Source of the DNA: Spiroplasma floricola 23-6
Lineage (GTDB): Bacteria; Bacillota_I; Bacilli_A; Mycoplasmatales; Mycoplasmataceae
NCBI RefSeq assembly: GCF_002813555.1
Contig: NZ_CP025057.1
Coordinates: 682,001-746,000 of the forward strand
Reading direction: 5' to 3'
DNA: 64,000 bases
Positions within the stretch are counted from its first letter, which is position 1, and each line of letters begins with the position of its first letter. Positions 18,627 to 61,284 of the stretch are shown piece after piece. Both the position numbers and the translations under genes were made by a program. The notes under the pieces were generated by a model, which was given only the letters and a program-made list of their open reading frames with translations, did no database searches and was not told the DNA's origin.

Positions 18627-18657
18627 ATTATATATAAAAAAAAAAAAAAAAAGTCAA
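18627..18657 (-). promoter_or_regulatory. Orphan T-tract promoter
   Basis: On the minus strand: TTGACT (18652-18657), a run of seventeen T, then TATAAT (18627-18632). The spacer is 19 bases to this TATAAT, or 15 to the overlapping TATATA. The only gene downstream is the lipoprotein remnant, so the switch has outlived its gene. Confidence 0.6.
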
Positions 18658-39273: not shown

Positions 39274-41814
39274 TTAGTTAATAGTTAATAAATTTTGTTT
39301 TTCTTGTTTTGTAAAGTAAATTTTTTTCTTTTCTTCAAAACCATAGCCTACTTCAACTGCATTAATTGCATTTCAGTATAAATTTTTATATTGTAATAAT
39401 TCAACTTTATCTGTTTCTTTTGAAATTTCTTCTACAAATTTCTCTGAAAGAGTTTCCAATTCTTTAATTGTTTTTTGATATTTCTTAACAAGTAATTCAT
39501 TTTCCTTAATTAAGTTATCTTTTTCTAAATTTATAGGATTAATTTTTTCTGATAAATTATATGAATTATATTTTTCAACAATTATATCTATTTTTTCTTG
39601 ATCAAGTTTTTCATTTTTTTGAGCTTTAATTGCTTTTTTATAAAGTGATGTTTTATGTTTTTCTTCAGCACCATTTAATCTTGCAAGTTTAGCTTCTAAT
39701 TTTAAAAGTTTTTGAATATACTTTTCATAATCTTTAATAACTTGTTCTTGTTCTTTGATATCTAAGCTTAATTTTTTAGCTCTTTGATCAAATGAAGTCA
39801 TGTTCTCAAATTTTATTTTTCTCAAAATATTTTTCATTTTATTTGAGATTTTAACTGAGTATTTATATTCATTTTTTCTTTCTTTATAGAATATAAATGT
39901 TAACAATATTCCAACTCCAATTGCAATAACAAATGAAAGTAACAAGAAAACTTTATCTAAGGTTTTATCATAACTTAATAACGCCAATATTCCTTGTGGA
40001 CCAACAGTATTTTGTACAACTCCTGTTGCTCCACACAATAGTGCTCCAGCAAATGATGCTACACAACCAATTAAGAAAGGTTTAATTTTTGGTAAATTAA
40101 CTCCATAAATTACTGGTTCTGTTATTCCAAATACACCTGCAGGAATACTACTTAATGCAAGTTGCTTTAAGTTTCCATTTTTTGAAAAAATTGCAATACC
40201 AATACATGCACCAAGTTGTCCCATAACAGCTATAGGCACTGCAGGTAACATTTCTGATGGAACAGGACTTTGAGATATCATTGGTAACATTAAAGTCATA
40301 GCAACAGCAACGTGAACTCCTGTTAAAACTAATGGTTGTCACATTAACGCAAATAGAGCTACTCCAAGTCCTCATGGTAATTTTTGTCCAATTAATGTTA
40401 CAAATTGAGCCATTAAGAATTCTAACAATGATAAGATTGGTCCTGCAATAAACATAACTGGAATTATAGTAAGAATTATAACTAATGCACTTCTAAAGAC
40501 AATATCAATTGCAGAAGGCATTCAAGTTTTAATTCATTTATCTGCATAGAAACAAATGAAACCAGATAAAATAAATGGCAAGACACTTCCTTCATATGCT
40601 TTTACAACAATTGGATAATTTCCAATTTTAAATAAGAATCATCCTGTAATACCATAGTTAGATTCTGACATTAATTCTCCAAATTTTCATTCATCTGAAG
40701 AACTGACTCCAACACTTGCAAACAAGAATCTTGATGTTAGAATCAAACCTATTAATATTGCAACTATTGTACTTCCACCTAAATATTTAACAGTGTTATA
40801 AATAAAAAACACACCAATTAAATTTAAAGATACTTTAGATAAAATATACATTAGTACTGAAAAAATATCAGCATTTGCAAAACCAGCTTCAGGATTTACA
40901 ATTGCATTTGATTGTAACAATATTGCATACAATGCTCCAAATATACCAGCTGCCATCAATACAGGAATAATTGGAACCATTATTCCAGCAATGCCTTCAA
41001 CAACAATAGTGCCAAGAGATTTTTTAACTTTCTCTTTTACTTCTTGAGTTGATCCTGAATAGTTTTCTTCTTTTTCTATTTCTTCTCTAACTTTGTAACA
41101 TTCCCCCCCCCCGATAATAATTTGTAATTCATCACCTGTTCAATTAATTCCTTTTACAAGCTCATTAGTTTTAATTTTTGCTTCATCTACTTTAGTTTTA
41201 TCATTAATATTAAATCTAAGTCTTGTCATGCAATTATAAACTCTTGAGAAATTTTTTCTTCCTCCAACTGCATTTACAAATAATTCACTAGCTATTTGAT
41301 ACTTGGATTTAAACTCTTTTAACTGAGTGTCTTTTTTTTGTGCTACAAGAGGTTTATAACTAATTTTACAAATTAATTCACCCTTTTTATATTTTCCTTC
41401 TTTTAAGTTAATAACTTTTATATCTTGTGCACTAGTTGGATCAAAAACTATTGGTGTTTCACTTGTTATGTTATTCTCTTTTAAAATTTCTAAATCTACT
41501 TCAAATATTGGATCATTTAACTTTAAGTTTTGCTCAAGCTTAACTTTTTGAGTAAAAGGTTTTCCATTTAGTTTAACAGTATCAATACCACAATGAATTA
41601 GTACTTCTATTTCATTGTTAATTTTAAAACCATAAGCGTGTTTAGTATCAAAAGTCATTTTGCACTTGGCTTTATCAAATGGTAATACAAATCTGCCATT
41701 ATCAGGTACAATAACTATTCCATCACCCAGCATTTTTTGTGAGAAAACTTCATCACTACATTTAGTAATACTTTTAACTTCACAATCAACTGGAGCATAT
41801 AAATTTATTTCCAC
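39274..41814 (-). CDS. PTS beta-glucoside transporter EIIA-EIIB-EIIC with C-terminal coiled coil, operon 1 (846 aa)
   Basis: The start is GTG at 41812-41814, 6 bases after AAGGAGGA. Order: EIIA (Glc type) residues 1-160 with active His in VLIHCGIDTV; EIIB about 180-250 with active Cys in VYNCMTRLRFN and the end DELQIIIGGGECYKV; EIIC about 270-650 with many helices (VPIIPVLMAAGIFGALYAIL, ITEPVIYGVNLPKIKPFL). About 200 charged, helical residues follow (SFDQRAKKLSLDIKEQEQVI ... LEAKLARLNGAEEKHKTSLY ...). A ten-G run inside the EIIB end (41103-41112) is in frame at present. The protein takes up and phosphorylates a beta-glucoside. The A-B-C order is a permuted form of the usual B-C-A. Confidence 0.93.
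41103..41112 (-). repeat. Homopolymer of ten G inside the EIIB coding region
   Basis: Coding strand ATC-GGG-GGG-GGG-GAA (Ile-Gly-Gly-Gly-Glu). The paralogue has only GGG-GGA at this place. In a genome this poor in G+C a 10-G run is exceptional and prone to slippage. A change of one base would stop translation before the membrane domain. Confidence 0.9.
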
Positions 41815-42681: not shown

Positions 42682-42736
42682 AAAAAAAAAAAAAAAACCT
42701 TTTTTTATTTCAAAATAAAAAAGATTTTTTATAAAT
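42682..42736 (-). terminator. Terminator of operon 2 with T17 run
   Basis: On the minus strand CTTTTTTATTT / AAATAAAAAAG arms are followed by seventeen T. The TATAAT of the next gene is 22 bases beyond the run rather than touching it. Confidence 0.65.
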
Positions 42737-42738
42737 AA

Positions 42739-44190
<1,452 letters not shown>

Positions 44191-44213: not shown

Positions 44214-46796
44214 TTAATTACTAATTGTTAATAATTCTTTTACTATTTTCTTATCTTCTTTAGAAAAGGTAAAATCCTTTTCATCTAAAACTCCAAAATT
44301 AATTTTTACTGAATTTATACCATTGTATAAATTATTTTCAAACTTCATTATATTTTCAAAGTTTGATATTTTTGCTAACTCTTTTAAAGTATCATTATAC
44401 ATTTGTGTTAGTTTGGCAATTGTTAAATCATATTCTTTTATAACTTTTTCATTTTCAATATTTCATTCATTAATTTTATTATTTAATTCAGCTTTTTGAC
44501 TACTTAAATTATAATCATTTGATTTTATAATTGCTTCGTTTACTTTTTCTTGATCTGCTTTTTCATTATCAAGAAGTTTTTTTGCTTTTGCAAAAAGAAT
44601 TCTTTTATTTTTTTCTTCTTTTGCAAGTATCAGATTTAATTTTGCTTCATATTTTGTTTTTAAAATAAAGTACTTATAATAATTTTTAAATATTAATTTT
44701 GAATTTTCCAATTCATCAATATATTGTTTTTCTATTAAATTTATTTTTTCTTTTGCCTCTTTTTGTTCAAGTCCATTTGCTATTAATATCTTTGAGATAA
44801 TTGAATTAATTTTACCAAATTGTTTTTTGCTAAATTTAATTTCATCTCATTTTTCAGAATAAAGTAATATTGTAAACAATGCTCCCCCACCAATTGCAAC
44901 TAGTCAACACAATATAAATAATAATTGATTAACAAAACCAGTTACAGCTGTAATTGAAAACACTCCTAATCCTGAAACAATTGAAGCTTTAATGTTTAAC
45001 AAACCAAGCATTAGCCCACCTAGTCCAGCTCCAATACAACCTCCTATGAAAGGTCTAACTTTTGGTAAAGTTGCTCCATATATAATGGGTTCGCTTATTC
45101 CTAACATTCCTGCAGTTAAACAACCAATTGTATAATTTTTTAACTGTGAATTTCGTGTCACAACAATAAGTCCTATTGCAGCTCCAACTTGACCAAATGA
45201 TCCAATTGCTGTTGCTATATCTAATGAAGTTGGTATAACAGGATTTTGGAAAAGTGTTCCTATCATAATACTCATAATAACAGCAACGTGAACTCCTGTT
45301 AAAACCATTATTTGTCACAACATTGCAAATAAAGCCACTCCTAAACCTAAAGGAATTTTTTCAAATAAAATACATATTTGACTTAATCCAAACTCAACCA
45401 TTCCTAAAGCTGGTCCAAATACAAATAATGTAACAACACAAATAATTGTGTAAACCATAAATGGTCTAAAAACAATATCTACTGTTGGATTTATTCATGA
45501 CTTAATTCATTTATCTAAATATACCATCAATATTGCAGCTGCTATAAATGGCAATACACTTCCTTCATATCCTTTAACAAGTATTGGAAAACTTCCTATC
45601 TTAAATAGTAATCATCCAGGTCCTGCTAAATCTGAAGATGTTCAATTTCCAAACTTTGCTTCCTCAATTGGTATAATGTTTCCAGAAAATAACATTCTTG
45701 AAGTAATAGTTAAACCAATTAGAGCAGCCATCATTATGTTACCTTTAAAATATTTAGCTGTAGAAATACAAAACAATACTCCCATTAAACTAAATCCAAT
45801 TTTACTTAAAATATACATTGTTGCTGCAAACAATCCTGCGTCCGCTACATTTTCAAATTGAGATGCATCTACAATTGCATTTGTTGAAACAAGCAAAGCT
45901 TGTAATGCTGCCAATAATGCAACAGCCATTAATGTTGGAATTTGAGGAGTCATTATTCCTGTGATAGCTGCCAAAAATCTTTTTGAAAATTTTGGTTTTA
46001 TAAATATTTTTGTCTCTTGAGTTTCTTGATCATAAACTCCAGCTTGAATATTTGAAATTTCATCTTTAACTTTATAGCACTCTCCCCCAATAATAACTTG
46101 TAATTCATTGCCATTTCACACTGTTCCTTTAACAAGTTCATTATTAGAAATTTTTTGTACGTCAACTTTTTCTTTGTCAATTATTTTAAATCGTAATCTA
46201 GTCATACAATTATAAACTTCTTCAAAGTTTGAAAAGCCTCCAACATTTTTTATAAATTGTTTTGCAGAAGTTAAATATTTAGATTCAAAACCAATTAACT
46301 CTATTTTTTCTTTTTTAACTTGGCTTTCCTTTTTAATTTCATATTCAATTAAAGCAACCAAATCACCTTTTTTAACTTTTCCTGTATTTAATTTTTTTAT
46401 TTTAAATGTAGATAAATTTGATTCTTCAAAAACTATTGGAGTTTCAGTTACTAAATTTTTTTGAGCTATTTGATTGAAATCAATAGTCATTATTTTAGTA
46501 TTCAAATCAACTTTATTGTTTTGTTCTACATTTAATTTAAAAGGTTTCCCATTCAATGAAACAGTATCAATACCAACATGAATAAGCATTTTTAGATTAT
46601 CACTTTCTAAAAAAACTGCATGCTTTGTATCAAAAATCATTGCAACATTTCCCTTATAAAATGGTGAATAAAGTTCATTAGAAGTTGGTACAATTAAAAA
46701 ACCATCACCCATCATTTTTTGAGCAAACATTGAATCAGAACATTCCTCAATTTTTTTAATTTCTCCATCCATAGGAGAAAATATTTTAATTTCCAT
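44214..46796 (-). CDS. PTS beta-glucoside transporter EIIA-EIIB-EIIC with C-terminal coiled coil, operon 2 (860 aa)
   Basis: Same architecture as operon 1: EIIA with MLIHVGIDTVSLNG, EIIB with VYNCMTRLRFK and NELQVIIGGECYKV, EIIC (MTPQIPTLMAVALLAALQAL, SEPIIYGATLPKVRPFIGGC). A helical charged extension of about 210 residues follows (KAKKLLDNEKADQEKVNEAI ... NFENIMKFENNLYNGINSVK). The site where operon 1 has ten G is only GGGGGA here. The ATG at 46796 has only a weak AGAAAG upstream. The extensions of the two proteins are similar in pattern (..LDNEKADQEKVN.. / ..KNEKLDQEKIDI..), so the extension is an old, kept part of the protein. Confidence 0.92.
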
Positions 46797-46894: not shown

Positions 46895-47626
46895 TTAAAG
46901 ATCTTGAAAAATAGTTAAGAACAAAATACTTAATGCAATATTTCTGTATATAGACTTACTATCATCATATTGATAATTAATAACCAATGATTTGTCAAAC
47001 TTTAATTTAATTATTGATTCTTGAAATTTTGAGACAATTAAAAAATTTTTTTGATTTTTATTAAACTTACTATTAAAGTTTCTTATTAAAGATTTATTAT
47101 CTTTTCCACACACAACTAAAATATTTACAATTTGTGAGTCACTAAAGTCTTTATTTAAATAATCATAATCATTGTTAATTATTATTGGATTTTTATTTAA
47201 AGCTACTAATGAATCATATAAATATCTAACTGAGTTTTGCACTTGATATGAACCATATATTTTTATACATTTAGAGTTTTTAATTTCATTTGTTAATGTT
47301 TCAATAAACTCTGAATTCTTTTCAATTCAATTAAAGATTGAAAAAATTATTTCTTTTGATTTAACATTATATTTTACTTCTTGATTTCCATACTTGTCAT
47401 ATTCATTTTTTAAAGTGAATAATAATTCTTTATACCCTGAATAACCAATTGCTTTTGAAAATTTGGTTATTGTAGAGTTTGCAACAAATGAAAGTTCAGC
47501 AATTTCTTTTTGATTAATAAATTCACCCTTATCAAATAAATCTATTATATTTTTAGCAATTATTTTAAATGAACTATCTTTACTATTATTAATAAAATCT
47601 TCTAATTTATCATAAACAGATCACAT
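46895..47626 (-). CDS. RpiR/MurR-family transcriptional regulator, operon 2 (243 aa)
   Basis: ATG 47626 (MWSVYDKLEDFINNSKDSSF; the second residue is a TGA-Trp) after GGAGGC. HTH FINQKEIAELSFVANSTITK and SIS-like domain (CIKIYGSYQVQNSVRYLYDS; QIVNILVVCGKDNKSLIRNF). Paralogue of the operon 1 regulator and first gene of operon 2. Its promoter is one of the T-tract units (47660-47703), so its own level might vary between cells. Confidence 0.88.
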
Positions 47627-47659: not shown

Positions 47660-47703
47660 ATTATAAAAAAAAAAAAAAAAATTATTGTAAAATAATTTTT
47701 TTT
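47660..47703 (-). promoter_or_regulatory. Terminator / T17 / TATAAT unit before rpiR-type gene 2
   Basis: On the minus strand a hairpin with AAATTATT / AATAATTT arms is followed by a T17 run (47665-47681 on the plus strand as A) that ends in TATAAT (47660-47665). TTACAA in the hairpin loop region (47685-47690) could be the -35 box, giving a 19-base spacer. Confidence 0.6.
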
Positions 47704-47849: not shown

Positions 47850-49493
47850 TTAAATATTACCTTTTTTAACTCTTATTTCAAAACTTATAGAACCTTTATA
47901 ATTGCCTATTCCCGCAATTGTTTCAATCTCATATTCTTCATTATTTGTATCTTTTTTAGATTCATAGTTTGCTTTAAAATCTTGTTCAGTTAAACCAAAA
48001 GTATCTTTAATCATTTTTTTTACTTTTGCTTGATCTCCACTAAAAGAATCTACATAAAATATTTTATTTTCAAATACTTTATTTTTTAAATCAATAACCT
48101 CTTCAATATTTTTTTGCTCAATTTTTACATTTTTAGAATCTTTAATTAATTTTGAAGTTTCAATTGCACTAATTTCAATTACATCACCTGCAGCAGTTTT
48201 AACAGTATTGCTTAATATTTTTGATTTATTTTCTTTATCTTTAACACTAATTTTATAATCTTTATCTAAAACTACATTTTTATCAATTTTTATTATCTCT
48301 TCTTTTATTATATTTTCAATTTCTATTTTTGATTTATTAAAATCTAATTTAGGAGAAATATTTGCTATACTTTTACGTGTTTCTTTATAGTTTAATATAA
48401 AAGTAGCTGATCCAATTACTTTTGTTGATGCTTTAACTGATTTAACTTCAATTGAGCCTTTTTCAGTTGAAGTTGGTTCTTTATAATTTTCAAAACTAAT
48501 ATCAGTACTTTCAACAACATCAATACTTAATTTAGATTTAATTTGATCAATAACAGCTTTTTTAGCACTTAATTCACTATTTTCCAAAGGTGAAATTTCT
48601 AAACTCTCACCTTTAATTTTTGATAAATCTATTCTATCTTCTTTATAGTTTAATATAAATGTAGCAGATCCAATTACTTTTGTTGATGCTTTAACTGATT
48701 TAACTTCAATCGAACCTTTTTCACTTAATGTTGGTTTTTTATAATTTTCAAAACTAATATCAGTACTTTCAACAACATCAATACTTAATTTAGATTTAAT
48801 TTGATCAATAACAGCTTTTTTAGCACTTAATTCACTATTTTCCAAAGGTGAAATTTCTAAACTCTCACCTTTGATTTTTGATAAATCTATTCTATCTTCT
48901 TTATAGTTTAATATAAATGTAGCAGATCCAATTACTTTTGTTGATGCTTTAACTGATTTAACTTCAATTGAACCTTTTTCACTTAATGTTGGTTTTTTAT
49001 AATTTTCAAAACTAATATCAGTACTTTCAACAACATCAATACTTAATTTAGATTTAATTTGATCAATAACAGCTTTTTTAGCACTTGATTCACTATTTTC
49101 CAAAGGTGAAATTTCTAAACTCTCACCTTTGATTTTTGATAAATCTATTTTATTTTTAATATCATTTTTAACAATATAATTAACTTCAACTGAACCTTTT
49201 TCAATATATTTTTTTGAATCTGTTTTAACAACAATATCGGCTTTTACATTAGTAATATTTTTAACTTCAACTTCTGATTTTATTAACTCTTTGTTTTTAG
49301 CAAATGTAGCATTTAAAATAGTTTCTGAACTCGGTTTACCCGTATTTCCATCTTGATTTAATTCTCCTAAATTTTTATTGATTATTATTTTAGTTAATTC
49401 AATTTTTTTTACTTCACTTTTACATGCTACAACTGTTGCACTTGTAGTTGCAACTAAACCTGTAGTTGCTAATAAACTTAATAACTTTTTCAT
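47850..49493 (-). CDS. Surface lipoprotein with three near-identical 86-residue repeats (547 aa)
   Basis: The start at 49493 (MKKLLSLLATTGLVATTSATVVAC) after AAAGGAGG; the frame extends upstream but without a signal. Residues 24-115 are a unique beta-rich domain. Three 86-residue repeats follow, starting IDLSKIKGESLEISPLENSE and ending SATFILNYKEDR, then about 170 residues of a related but diverged domain type (DLKNKVFENKIFYVDSFSGD). Each repeat looks like one compact alpha/beta domain. The repeats are nearly identical in DNA, so copy number can change in frame. Probable surface stalk or coat protein. The IS3 element sits just upstream. Confidence 0.9.
   Translation of the reverse strand: MKKLLSLLATTGLVATTSATVVACKSEVKKIELTKIIINKNLGELNQDGNTGKPSSETILNATFAKNKELIKSEVEVKNITNVKADIVVKTDSKKYIEKGSVEVNYIVKNDIKNKIDLSKIKGESLEISPLENSESSAKKAVIDQIKSKLSIDVVESTDISFENYKKPTLSEKGSIEVKSVKASTKVIGSATFILNYKEDRIDLSKIKGESLEISPLENSELSAKKAVIDQIKSKLSIDVVESTDISFENYKKPTLSEKGSIEVKSVKASTKVIGSATFILNYKEDRIDLSKIKGESLEISPLENSELSAKKAVIDQIKSKLSIDVVESTDISFENYKEPTSTEKGSIEVKSVKASTKVIGSATFILNYKETRKSIANISPKLDFNKSKIEIENIIKEEIIKIDKNVVLDKDYKISVKDKENKSKILSNTVKTAAGDVIEISAIETSKLIKDSKNVKIEQKNIEEVIDLKNKVFENKIFYVDSFSGDQAKVKKMIKDTFGLTEQDFKANYESKKDTNNEEYEIETIAGIGNYKGSISFEIRVKKGNI
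48375..49148 (-). repeat. Three tandem 258-bp repeats
   Basis: Units at 48891-49148, 48633-48890 and 48375-48632. The same sequence recurs exactly 258 bases apart. Differences are a handful of bases (Ser/Leu after ENSE, KKPTLSEKG against KEPTSTEKG). Confidence 0.92.
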
Positions 49494-49553
49494 TTTTCCT
49501 CCTTTTATAAGAGCTATTAAAATACAAATAAACAATTCAAATTGATATTGCTA

Positions 49554-49595
49554 ATTATATAAAAAAAAAAAAAAAATCAAGTTTATTGACTTGAC
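49554..49595 (-). promoter_or_regulatory. Terminator / T16 / TATAAT unit before the repeat lipoprotein
   Basis: On the minus strand TCAAGT / ACTTGA hairpin, sixteen T, one A, then TATAAT (49554-49559). TTGATT (49575-49580) overlaps the hairpin arm and would be the -35 box with a 15-base spacer. Confidence 0.65.
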
Positions 49596-49661
49596 AGAGG
49601 TTAGAATGTTCCCCCCATTTAGGCAACAATTTTTATACAATAATAGAAAAGGATAAAGTAT

Positions 49662-50024
49662 ATGGCAAAAAAAGGACAAAAGTTTAGAAAGTGAACTCAA
49701 GAAGAAAAAGAAAAAATTATTGAATTAAGTTTGAATGGTTATTCTCTAAAGGAAATAGCATTAAAATTTAACTCAACTACAGGATCAATTGGAACAATAA
49801 TAAACAAATACAAAAATACAGATATTGGTGATTCAAAAACTCGTTTACCTTATAAAATAGATTACAGTATATCTCAAAAGGCAAATGATCTGTTTGTAGG
49901 AATTCTATTTGATTACAATAAGGAATTAATTAAGGAGAATGATATTTTAAAAAAGCAATGAGCCTCCAAGGCCAAAACCAAAAAGAAATAGTTCAACAAT
50001 TATTGATAAATACCAAGAGCAATA
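49662..50024 (+). CDS. IS3-family OrfA (helix-turn-helix, 120 aa)
   Basis: ATG 49662 (MAKKGQKFRKWTQEEKEKII). Helix-turn-helix ELSLNGYSLKEIALKFNSTTGSIGTIINKYK, then a leucine-zipper-like stretch (YNKELIKENDILKKQ) ending at TAG 50022-50024. It overlaps orfB by 67 bases in the -1 relationship. OrfA alone usually binds the IS ends and regulates transposition. Confidence 0.87.
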
Positions 50025-50812
50025 GAACAATGATTTGTAAAATTTTAAATATTAATAGAACATCAACATATAAAAAAAATAAAACTTTAATGAATTTCCT
50101 GGATGATACAAGAATTATGAATTTAGTTATTTCAGAAATTGAAAGGAATAATTTCCTTAGTGCTTATAGTGCTAAAAGATGAGCCCTATATTTTAAATTA
50201 AATTATATTGACCCTTTCAGAATTAATCATAAAAAATTAGAACGTATATTTAAAAAATTTAATCATATTGCATATTACATTAAGAAACAATCTAAACATG
50301 AGATTAAAAGATATAACGAAACTATTAGAAAGAATTATTTAAAAGAAGCAAAAGAAATTGGTTTTGAAAATATTTGAACTAGTGATATAACTGAATTTTC
50401 AGTTAAAACAAAAAAAGGTTATATTTGCACAGTTCAAGATAATTTAACTGGAGAAATAATAGGAAAATCTAAAAGAATTGATAATCAAAAAACAGATTTT
50501 GTTCTTGAAGCTGTAGAAATGGCATATAAAAATAAAAAATATTTAGGTTCAATATTATTACATTCAGATAATGGAAATCAATATACCTCTCTGGATTACA
50601 TAAGTTTATGTAATGATTTACAAATTATTAGAAGCTATTCAAAACCAGGAACACCTCATCATAATGGTAAACATGAAAGTTTTCATGGTCGTTTAAAAGA
50701 TGAAACTATAAGAACATGTCATATTGAAAACATTAATCAATGTATGGAAATAGCATGAGCATGATTGGACTTTTATAATAATGATAGAATTAGAATGAAT
50801 AAAAAATGATAA
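49958..50812 (+). CDS. IS3-family OrfB transposase (DDE integrase domain, 284 aa)
   Basis: In frame -1 to OrfA, joined at the A-AAA-AAG site to give the OrfAB transposase. HTH_21-like N-terminus (RTMICKILNINRTSTYKKNK). The catalytic triad is visible: Asp in WTSDITEFS, Asp in LLHSDNGNQYTS, and Glu in PHHNGKHESFHGRLKDE. The C-terminus ends DFYNNDRIRMNKKW. Three TGA-Trp codons are used, so the element is adapted to this genetic code. It appears intact and possibly active. Confidence 0.9.
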
Positions 50813-50908
50813 AAAAAAAAAAAAAACGTTCCCAATTTGGGGGGAACGTTGTCACTTTATAGAATGAAAAAATAAAGATGTCTTTTATGGAATAATAACT
50901 ATATAAAT

Positions 50909-56148: not shown

Positions 56149-56190
56149 ATTATAAAAAAAAAAAAAAAAGTCAAATTTTTGACTTTTATT
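56149..56190 (-). promoter_or_regulatory. Terminator / T16 / TATAAT unit before lipoprotein A
   Basis: On the minus strand a hairpin of AAAGTCAAA / TTTGACTTT arms runs into sixteen T and TATAAT (56149-56154). TTGACT (56169-56174) is both the right arm of the hairpin and a good -35 box; the spacer is 14 T. The same sequence is found in front of lipoprotein B. Confidence 0.75.
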
Positions 56191-58167: not shown

Positions 58168-58209
58168 ATTATAAAAAAAAAAAAAAAAGTCAAATTTTTG
58201 ACTTTTCTT
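58168..58209 (-). promoter_or_regulatory. Terminator / T16 / TATAAT unit before lipoprotein B
   Basis: Identical in layout to 56149-56190: TTGACT at 58188-58193, run of sixteen (A 58173-58188 on the plus strand), TATAAT at 58168-58173, 14-base spacer. Confidence 0.75.
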
Positions 58210-61247: not shown

Positions 61248-61284
61248 ATTATAAAAAAAAAAAAAAAAAGATGTTTTCACATCT
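61248..61284 (-). promoter_or_regulatory. Terminator / T17 / TATAAT unit before the 949-aa surface gene
   Basis: On the minus strand GATGT-GAAA-ACATC hairpin, seventeen T and TATAAT (61248-61253). It ends the 182-aa gene and starts the surface gene. No good -35 box is visible here. Confidence 0.6.

Follow-up and report, generated by a model that had tools for sequence, protein, structure and literature searches.

How did the longest G run of a 1.28 Mb genome come to lie inside a gene for sugar uptake, and could changes in its length switch that gene on and off? The question is raised by a run of ten guanines in a gene of the phosphotransferase system (PTS) of Spiroplasma floricola 23-6. An earlier note on this DNA described the run as a contingency tract. 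Here, we examined the run in the 64,000-nucleotide window that contains it (positions 682001-746000 of a genome of 1,284,130 bases in one contig), in the whole genome and in related genomes.

The run and the permease gene that carries it

The run is present in the assembly. On the coding strand its context is ATT ATC GGG GGG GGG GAA TGT, in frame under code 4, so that Gly-Gly-Gly-Glu is encoded by codons 235-238 of an 846-residue open reading frame, as had been claimed. The gene is a PTS EIIABC permease of the glucose/beta-glucoside superfamily, and all three domains score above their Pfam cut-offs (EIIA, 136.1 bits against 27.2; EIIB, 47.6 against 27; EIIC, 69.0 against 30.7). That the run sits at the end of EIIB is also right. 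Residues 166-260, when modelled (six sequences; mean pLDDT 84.7), have an EIIB fold that matches solved EIIB domains, e.g. 3ipj and 3bp3, with the glycines (positions 70-72) in a loop that follows a strand (64-69) and precedes the last EIIB helix (73-86). In this model an extra glycine in the loop would plausibly be tolerated.

An rpiR-type regulator gene and a GH1 glycosidase gene flank the permease gene, and this operon is adjoined by a second rpiR-PTS-GH1 operon, complete and of the same gene order. Its PTS gene reads GGG GGA GAG at the equivalent place, in agreement with the description of the paralogue as having five G and then A. The proposed uptake of beta-glucosides is less secure. The best NCBIfam match of the permease is indeed PTS-II-ABC-beta (TIGR01995), but its score of 332.6 bits is far under the curated cut-off of 614.7 bits for the beta-glucoside-specific family. 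A beta-glucoside substrate is suggested by the GH1 neighbour, whose best NCBIfam matches are 6-phospho-beta-glucosidases, under cut-off.

Table 1. Features of the window discussed in the text (window coordinates).
Feature	Position	Strand	Remarks
PTS EIIA-EIIB-EIIC gene, 846 aa	39274-41814	-	GTG start after an AGGAGG-like site; TGA read as Trp
EIIA domain, PF00358, residues 4-126	41437-41805	-	Pfam; predicted to remain in OFF frames
EIIB core match, PF00367, residues 180-210	41185-41277	-	Pfam
G10 run (C10 on the + strand)	41103-41112	-	PTS gene codons 235-237, and base 1 of codon 238
EIIC domain, PF02378, residues 278-585	40060-40983	-	Pfam; lost in OFF frames
rpiR-type regulator gene, PF01418	41909-42634	-	Heads the operon; kept beside all three orthologues
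GH1 glycosidase gene, PF00232	37811-39262	-	Downstream of the PTS gene
T16 run between the two operons	42682-42697	-	Preceded by a hairpin-like stretch; lacks an immediately adjacent -10
GH1 gene, tandem operon	42739-44190	-	
Paralogous PTS EIIA-B-C gene, tandem operon	44214-46796	-	Two Gly codons; G5 (46084-46088), followed by A
rpiR-type gene, tandem operon	46895-47626	-	
T17 run, then ATAAT	47665-47681	-	38 nt upstream of the tandem-operon rpiR; candidate promoter spacer
TTGAN-T12+ sites	18636-18652, 49561-49576, 56154-56169, 58173-58188		T15-T17; TTGA(C) and AT-rich -10-like frame
ATAAT-bearing T runs without TTGAN	47665-47681, 61253-61269		
IS3-like element	49605-50850		One of 11 copies in the genome

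The run is a long, uninterrupted coding homopolymer well above chance expectation, as homopolymer contingency loci are. No comparable run arose when the window was dinucleotide-shuffled 100 times, and GGG makes up 46 of the 775 glycine codons in the open reading frames of the window. Genome-wide, runs of at least nine G occur at two places, namely the PTS gene, whose G10 is the maximum, and one end of an insertion sequence (IS), with G9. Runs of at least six G comprise 22 that are the ends of 11 IS copies and 14 elsewhere (eleven G6, two G7 and the one G10). In each of 19 same-genus genomes the longest G run is at most eight; runs of exactly G8 number 14, spread over ten of these genomes, and the G8 contexts that we inspected are mostly conserved Gly-Gly or Gly-Gly-Gly in long open reading frames.

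By our own reading of the translations, mostly without family search, eight of the 14 non-IS runs fall in genes for the uptake and breakdown of sugars and glycerol: a fructose-type PTS (two runs), GlpF-like, GlpK-like and GH1 genes, and three PTS genes including the one studied here. This bias may be a mere reflection of Gly-Gly motifs. An origin of the G10 run from an IS end, where G6 followed by AA is also present, was considered and dropped, for the sequences diverge beyond GGGGGGAA.

Orthologues, reading frame and slippage

The closest orthologues of the gene (L018, L019 and L020; 74, 72 and 70% identity) share its operon, with the PTS gene flanked by rpiR (70-71%) and GH1 (83-86%). At the position of the run they read GGT GGT GAA in L018 and GGT GGA GAA in both L019 and L020. 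Among the 29 PTS loci of relatives that were compared (L018-L046), 27 have a two-residue loop; L046, a distant PTS, has Gly-Thr-Gly, and in L036 the alignment ends within the loop. The G10 tract is absent as a run from the three closest orthologues and from the other loci compared, and thus is not conserved as a run in related species. Relative to its orthologues, the G10 gene has one extra glycine, a net insertion of three bases, and its glycine codons are now pure GGG. Its lack in the three orthologues marks the run as a recent one, present in this genome alone among those examined.

Residues private to one sequence gave no sign of decay or relaxed constraint downstream of the run. After the run, 36 of 602 residues are private to the G10 gene, compared with 27, 36 and 38 in the three orthologues; before the run the figures are 18 of 234, and 1, 2 and 9. 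This would suggest either a young run or a gene that was ON for most of the time. As a separate observation, L018 and L019 differ at 14 of 234 residues in EIIA-EIIB and at 194 of 607 in EIIC and the tail, as if domains had been swapped by recombination. A search of genome contigs with the single PTS protein found no relative, and a contig search with alignment A1 returned 54 loci, for the most part PTS genes from Selenomonadales and from further Firmicutes.

To see what a change of length would do, we computed the reading frame for runs of 5 to 13 G. Lengths of 7, 10 and 13 read through to a product of 845-847 residues, and lengths of 5, 6, 8, 9, 11 and 12 meet a stop at 240-246 residues, ahead of EIIC. 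Changes by single units would thus toggle between a full-length and a truncated product, as is expected of a contingency locus with a coding homopolymer. The predicted OFF product would retain EIIA with the body of EIIB; EIIC and the C-terminal extension would be missing. The loss of EIIC foreseen in the earlier note is therefore borne out by computation, and the coiled coil that it named is the K/E-rich C-terminal extension, a putative coiled coil. The OFF variant may not abolish uptake, because of the complete operon next to it.

Does slippage occur in this lineage? Indirect evidence from sequence comparison says yes. Models of MutS (TIGR01070) and MutL (TIGR00585) found no match in the genome, while the respective controls were positive in 11 of 14 and 14 of 14 genomes. 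The 11 IS copies, when aligned, show ten substitution columns in 1250, and their length differences are confined to homopolymers: the left run is C6 in ten copies and C9 in one (G6 and G9 on the other strand), an A run is A16 in eight and A17 in three, and the right run is six in all 11. As near-identical copies differ in length there alone, homopolymers appear to change length in this lineage. Similarly, two neighbouring candidate promoters of lipoprotein genes have T15 and T17 within DNA that is 93.6% identical. In Campylobacter jejuni, which is without mismatch repair, insertions and deletions in poly-G runs have been reported at 1e-4 to 1.6e-3 per division, and a mutational bias keeps the runs at G9-G10 (PMC8355987). 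The two G runs longer than seven in the S. floricola genome, in the IS end and in the PTS gene, are exactly G9 and G10.

T runs before lipoprotein genes

G10 is not the sole homopolymer of interest here. A or T runs of 16-17 occur 11 times in the window, and there are none of 10-15. Genome-wide, TTGAN followed by at least 12 T is found at 20 sites, and T13 followed by ATAAT at 18; the control counts are zero for both, a reversed pattern serving for the former. At 16 of the 20 TTGAN-T12+ loci a lipoprotein-like open reading frame (MKKLLS...AC or near) starts 55-77 nt past the run, and these genes are paralogous; the other four loci have no open reading frame by the rule applied. Among 29 relatives searched, T13-ATAAT occurs seven times in one genome (G014), three times in another (G001) and once each in G003, G004, G007, G010 and G017, with none in the other 22.

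That the T16-T17 runs could be promoter spacers is suggested by the TTGAC and ATAAT that flank them and by the near-fixed distance to the lipoprotein starts. The usual promoter spacer is 17 nt. Read as promoters, the T-run sites would have a spacer of 13-15 nt, under the usual length. Some of the T16-T17 runs follow hairpin-like stretches, and both roles, terminator tail and promoter spacer, are possible. The T15-T17 sites could possibly form a family of homopolymer-spacer promoters similar to that of the vlp genes discussed below.

In nine of the 11 IS copies, one end lies 27-42 nt upstream of a TTGAN-T12+ site, against a random mean of 0.008, and the sequence beyond the far end differs among copies. 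The placement together with the differing far flanks suggests a target preference of the element for these candidate promoters or terminators. We would also like to point out that the lipoprotein gene at 47850-49535 has several near-identical internal repeats, with units beginning IDLSKIKGESLEISPLENSE, and could possibly encode a size-variable surface protein.

Competing readings and known switches

We argue that the G10 run is probably a slippage-prone, reversible ON/OFF site in one of two tandem PTS operons, which is the mechanism that the sequence comparisons support best. Two ancestral glycine codons (GGN GGN) would have become a pure G run in this lineage, in an order of mutations that is our reconstruction, and the run would then have gained three bases to give Gly-Gly-Gly in the EIIB loop. 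Replication slippage by one or two bases would stop translation at the early stops computed above, leaving no EIIC membrane part, and slipping back would restore the gene. A population would then hold a reversible minority of cells in which the transporter of one of the two operons is OFF. For this locus, the slippage rate, the OFF cells, the substrate and any benefit are all things that we infer. Against this mechanism, the intact paralogous operon may mask the OFF state, and a single genome stands behind it. The position of the run far into the gene, the absence of relaxed constraint after it and the +3 change in an IS end also weigh on this side. The earlier note's slippage site thus stands insofar as the run is unusual, in frame and truncating when changed, in a genome with no MutS or MutL match whose homopolymers vary elsewhere; variation of this run itself is a prediction, and selection for it a hypothesis.

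How else could the run be explained? Homopolymers are error-prone in sequencing and assembly, and the ten G could be such an error; an error, however, would have to add exactly three bases to a run of seven to preserve the frame, and the run is in frame within an otherwise intact, constrained gene, which makes this very improbable. Long homopolymers can also cause slippage of bacterial RNA polymerase, and transcripts of mixed frames could then arise from one DNA length, so that the full-length product would never be wholly lost. We find transcriptional slippage improbable too, as it explains nothing observed that otherwise lacks an explanation. More serious is a neutral accident, in which a synonymous G run received one in-frame glycine insertion and, stable or not, has no function. 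The same +3 change is found in a non-coding IS end, where G6 became G9, and the fact that the PTS run keeps the frame is thus no sign of selection on its own, nor need it imply passage through an OFF state. Moreover, Gly-Gly spelled GGGGGG recurs, as the 14 runs of at least six G outside the 22 IS ends show. On the other hand, G10 is far outside the other non-IS runs, which are eleven G6 and two G7, and so long a run is expected to mutate often and to give a phenotype even if unselected. We regard the neutral accident as evenly poised between true and false, and our confidences overlap, for a run may be neutral and yet prone to slippage.

A stronger form of the slippage-site reading is that switching of the permease is itself adaptive, as a form of bet-hedging when hosts or sugars change. 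Every piece of evidence for slippage applies to it, and the T15-T17 promoter-like sites, together with the T17 before the tandem PTS operon, raise the idea that control by homopolymers is general in this genome. ON/OFF switching of a PTS permease is, moreover, known in Mycoplasma mycoides (PMC3711806). Yet the orthologues are without the run, the case rests on one genome, the paralogue is redundant, and most of the other runs of at least six G are two glycine codons of conserved motifs. Selected switching seems to us rather unlikely, and no likelier than a neutral origin. Bolder still is a scheme in which EIIA-less PTS paralogues are fed phosphate by the soluble EIIA, with a damaged EIIB, that would be released in the OFF state, given that the run lies after the soluble EIIA-EIIB portion and before the EIIC in the membrane. 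The T15-T17 promoter-like spacers would set the level of the lipoprotein family and of one PTS operon, the coding G10 would switch the sister operon, and slippage would redirect sugar uptake rather than merely stop it. We offer this scheme as a long shot.

If the run does vary, a metabolic transporter would have a clean, easily sequenced mutable switch in a mollicute that is not a mammalian pathogen, and the case would test whether arthropod- or plant-associated bacteria bet-hedge their sugar uptake. It draws attention, too, to the more numerous T runs before lipoprotein genes, whose lengths any existing set of reads would allow one to type. In the titles and abstract openings of the open-licence literature, we met no report of a poly-G run in an EIIB loop and nothing specific on phase variation or slippage in Spiroplasma, and for homopolymers or phase variation together with PTS genes the M. 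mycoides case alone was directly relevant in that literature.

A switchable PTS in a mollicute is of a known kind. The glucose permease of M. mycoides subsp. mycoides is turned ON and OFF by premature termination (Gaurivaud et al. 2004, as cited in PMC3711806), and the claim that such switches are unusual outside surface antigens has to be softened accordingly. The likeness is close, for in both cases a mollicute PTS permease is terminated prematurely and there are two similar permeases per genome; the difference is that the M. mycoides permease is one for glucose whose switching was observed, whereas switching at G10 is a prediction. The poly-G contingency loci of C. jejuni (PMC8355987) resemble G10 in their runs of G9-G10, their ON/OFF control by length and the lack of mismatch repair, but they are many loci with measured rates, and here we have one locus, known from its sequence. 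Among mollicutes, vaa of M. hominis and p78 of M. fermentans are switched by frameshifts in coding poly-A, and coding runs of A and T with a presumed regulatory role cluster near gene starts (PMC2831843). These genes share with G10 the coding homopolymer, and p78 is part of a transporter; they differ in that their poly-A runs of 7-8 are at the 5' end and their products are surface proteins. G10 is remote from the 5' end, as it starts at codon 235 of the 846. Finally, the vlp lipoprotein genes of M. hyorhinis each have a promoter that contains a homopolymer of A (PMC10502178), and resemble not G10 but the T15-T17 sites before the lipoprotein genes of this genome; the vlp runs are of A, whereas these are of T on the coding strand, and we know them as sequence.
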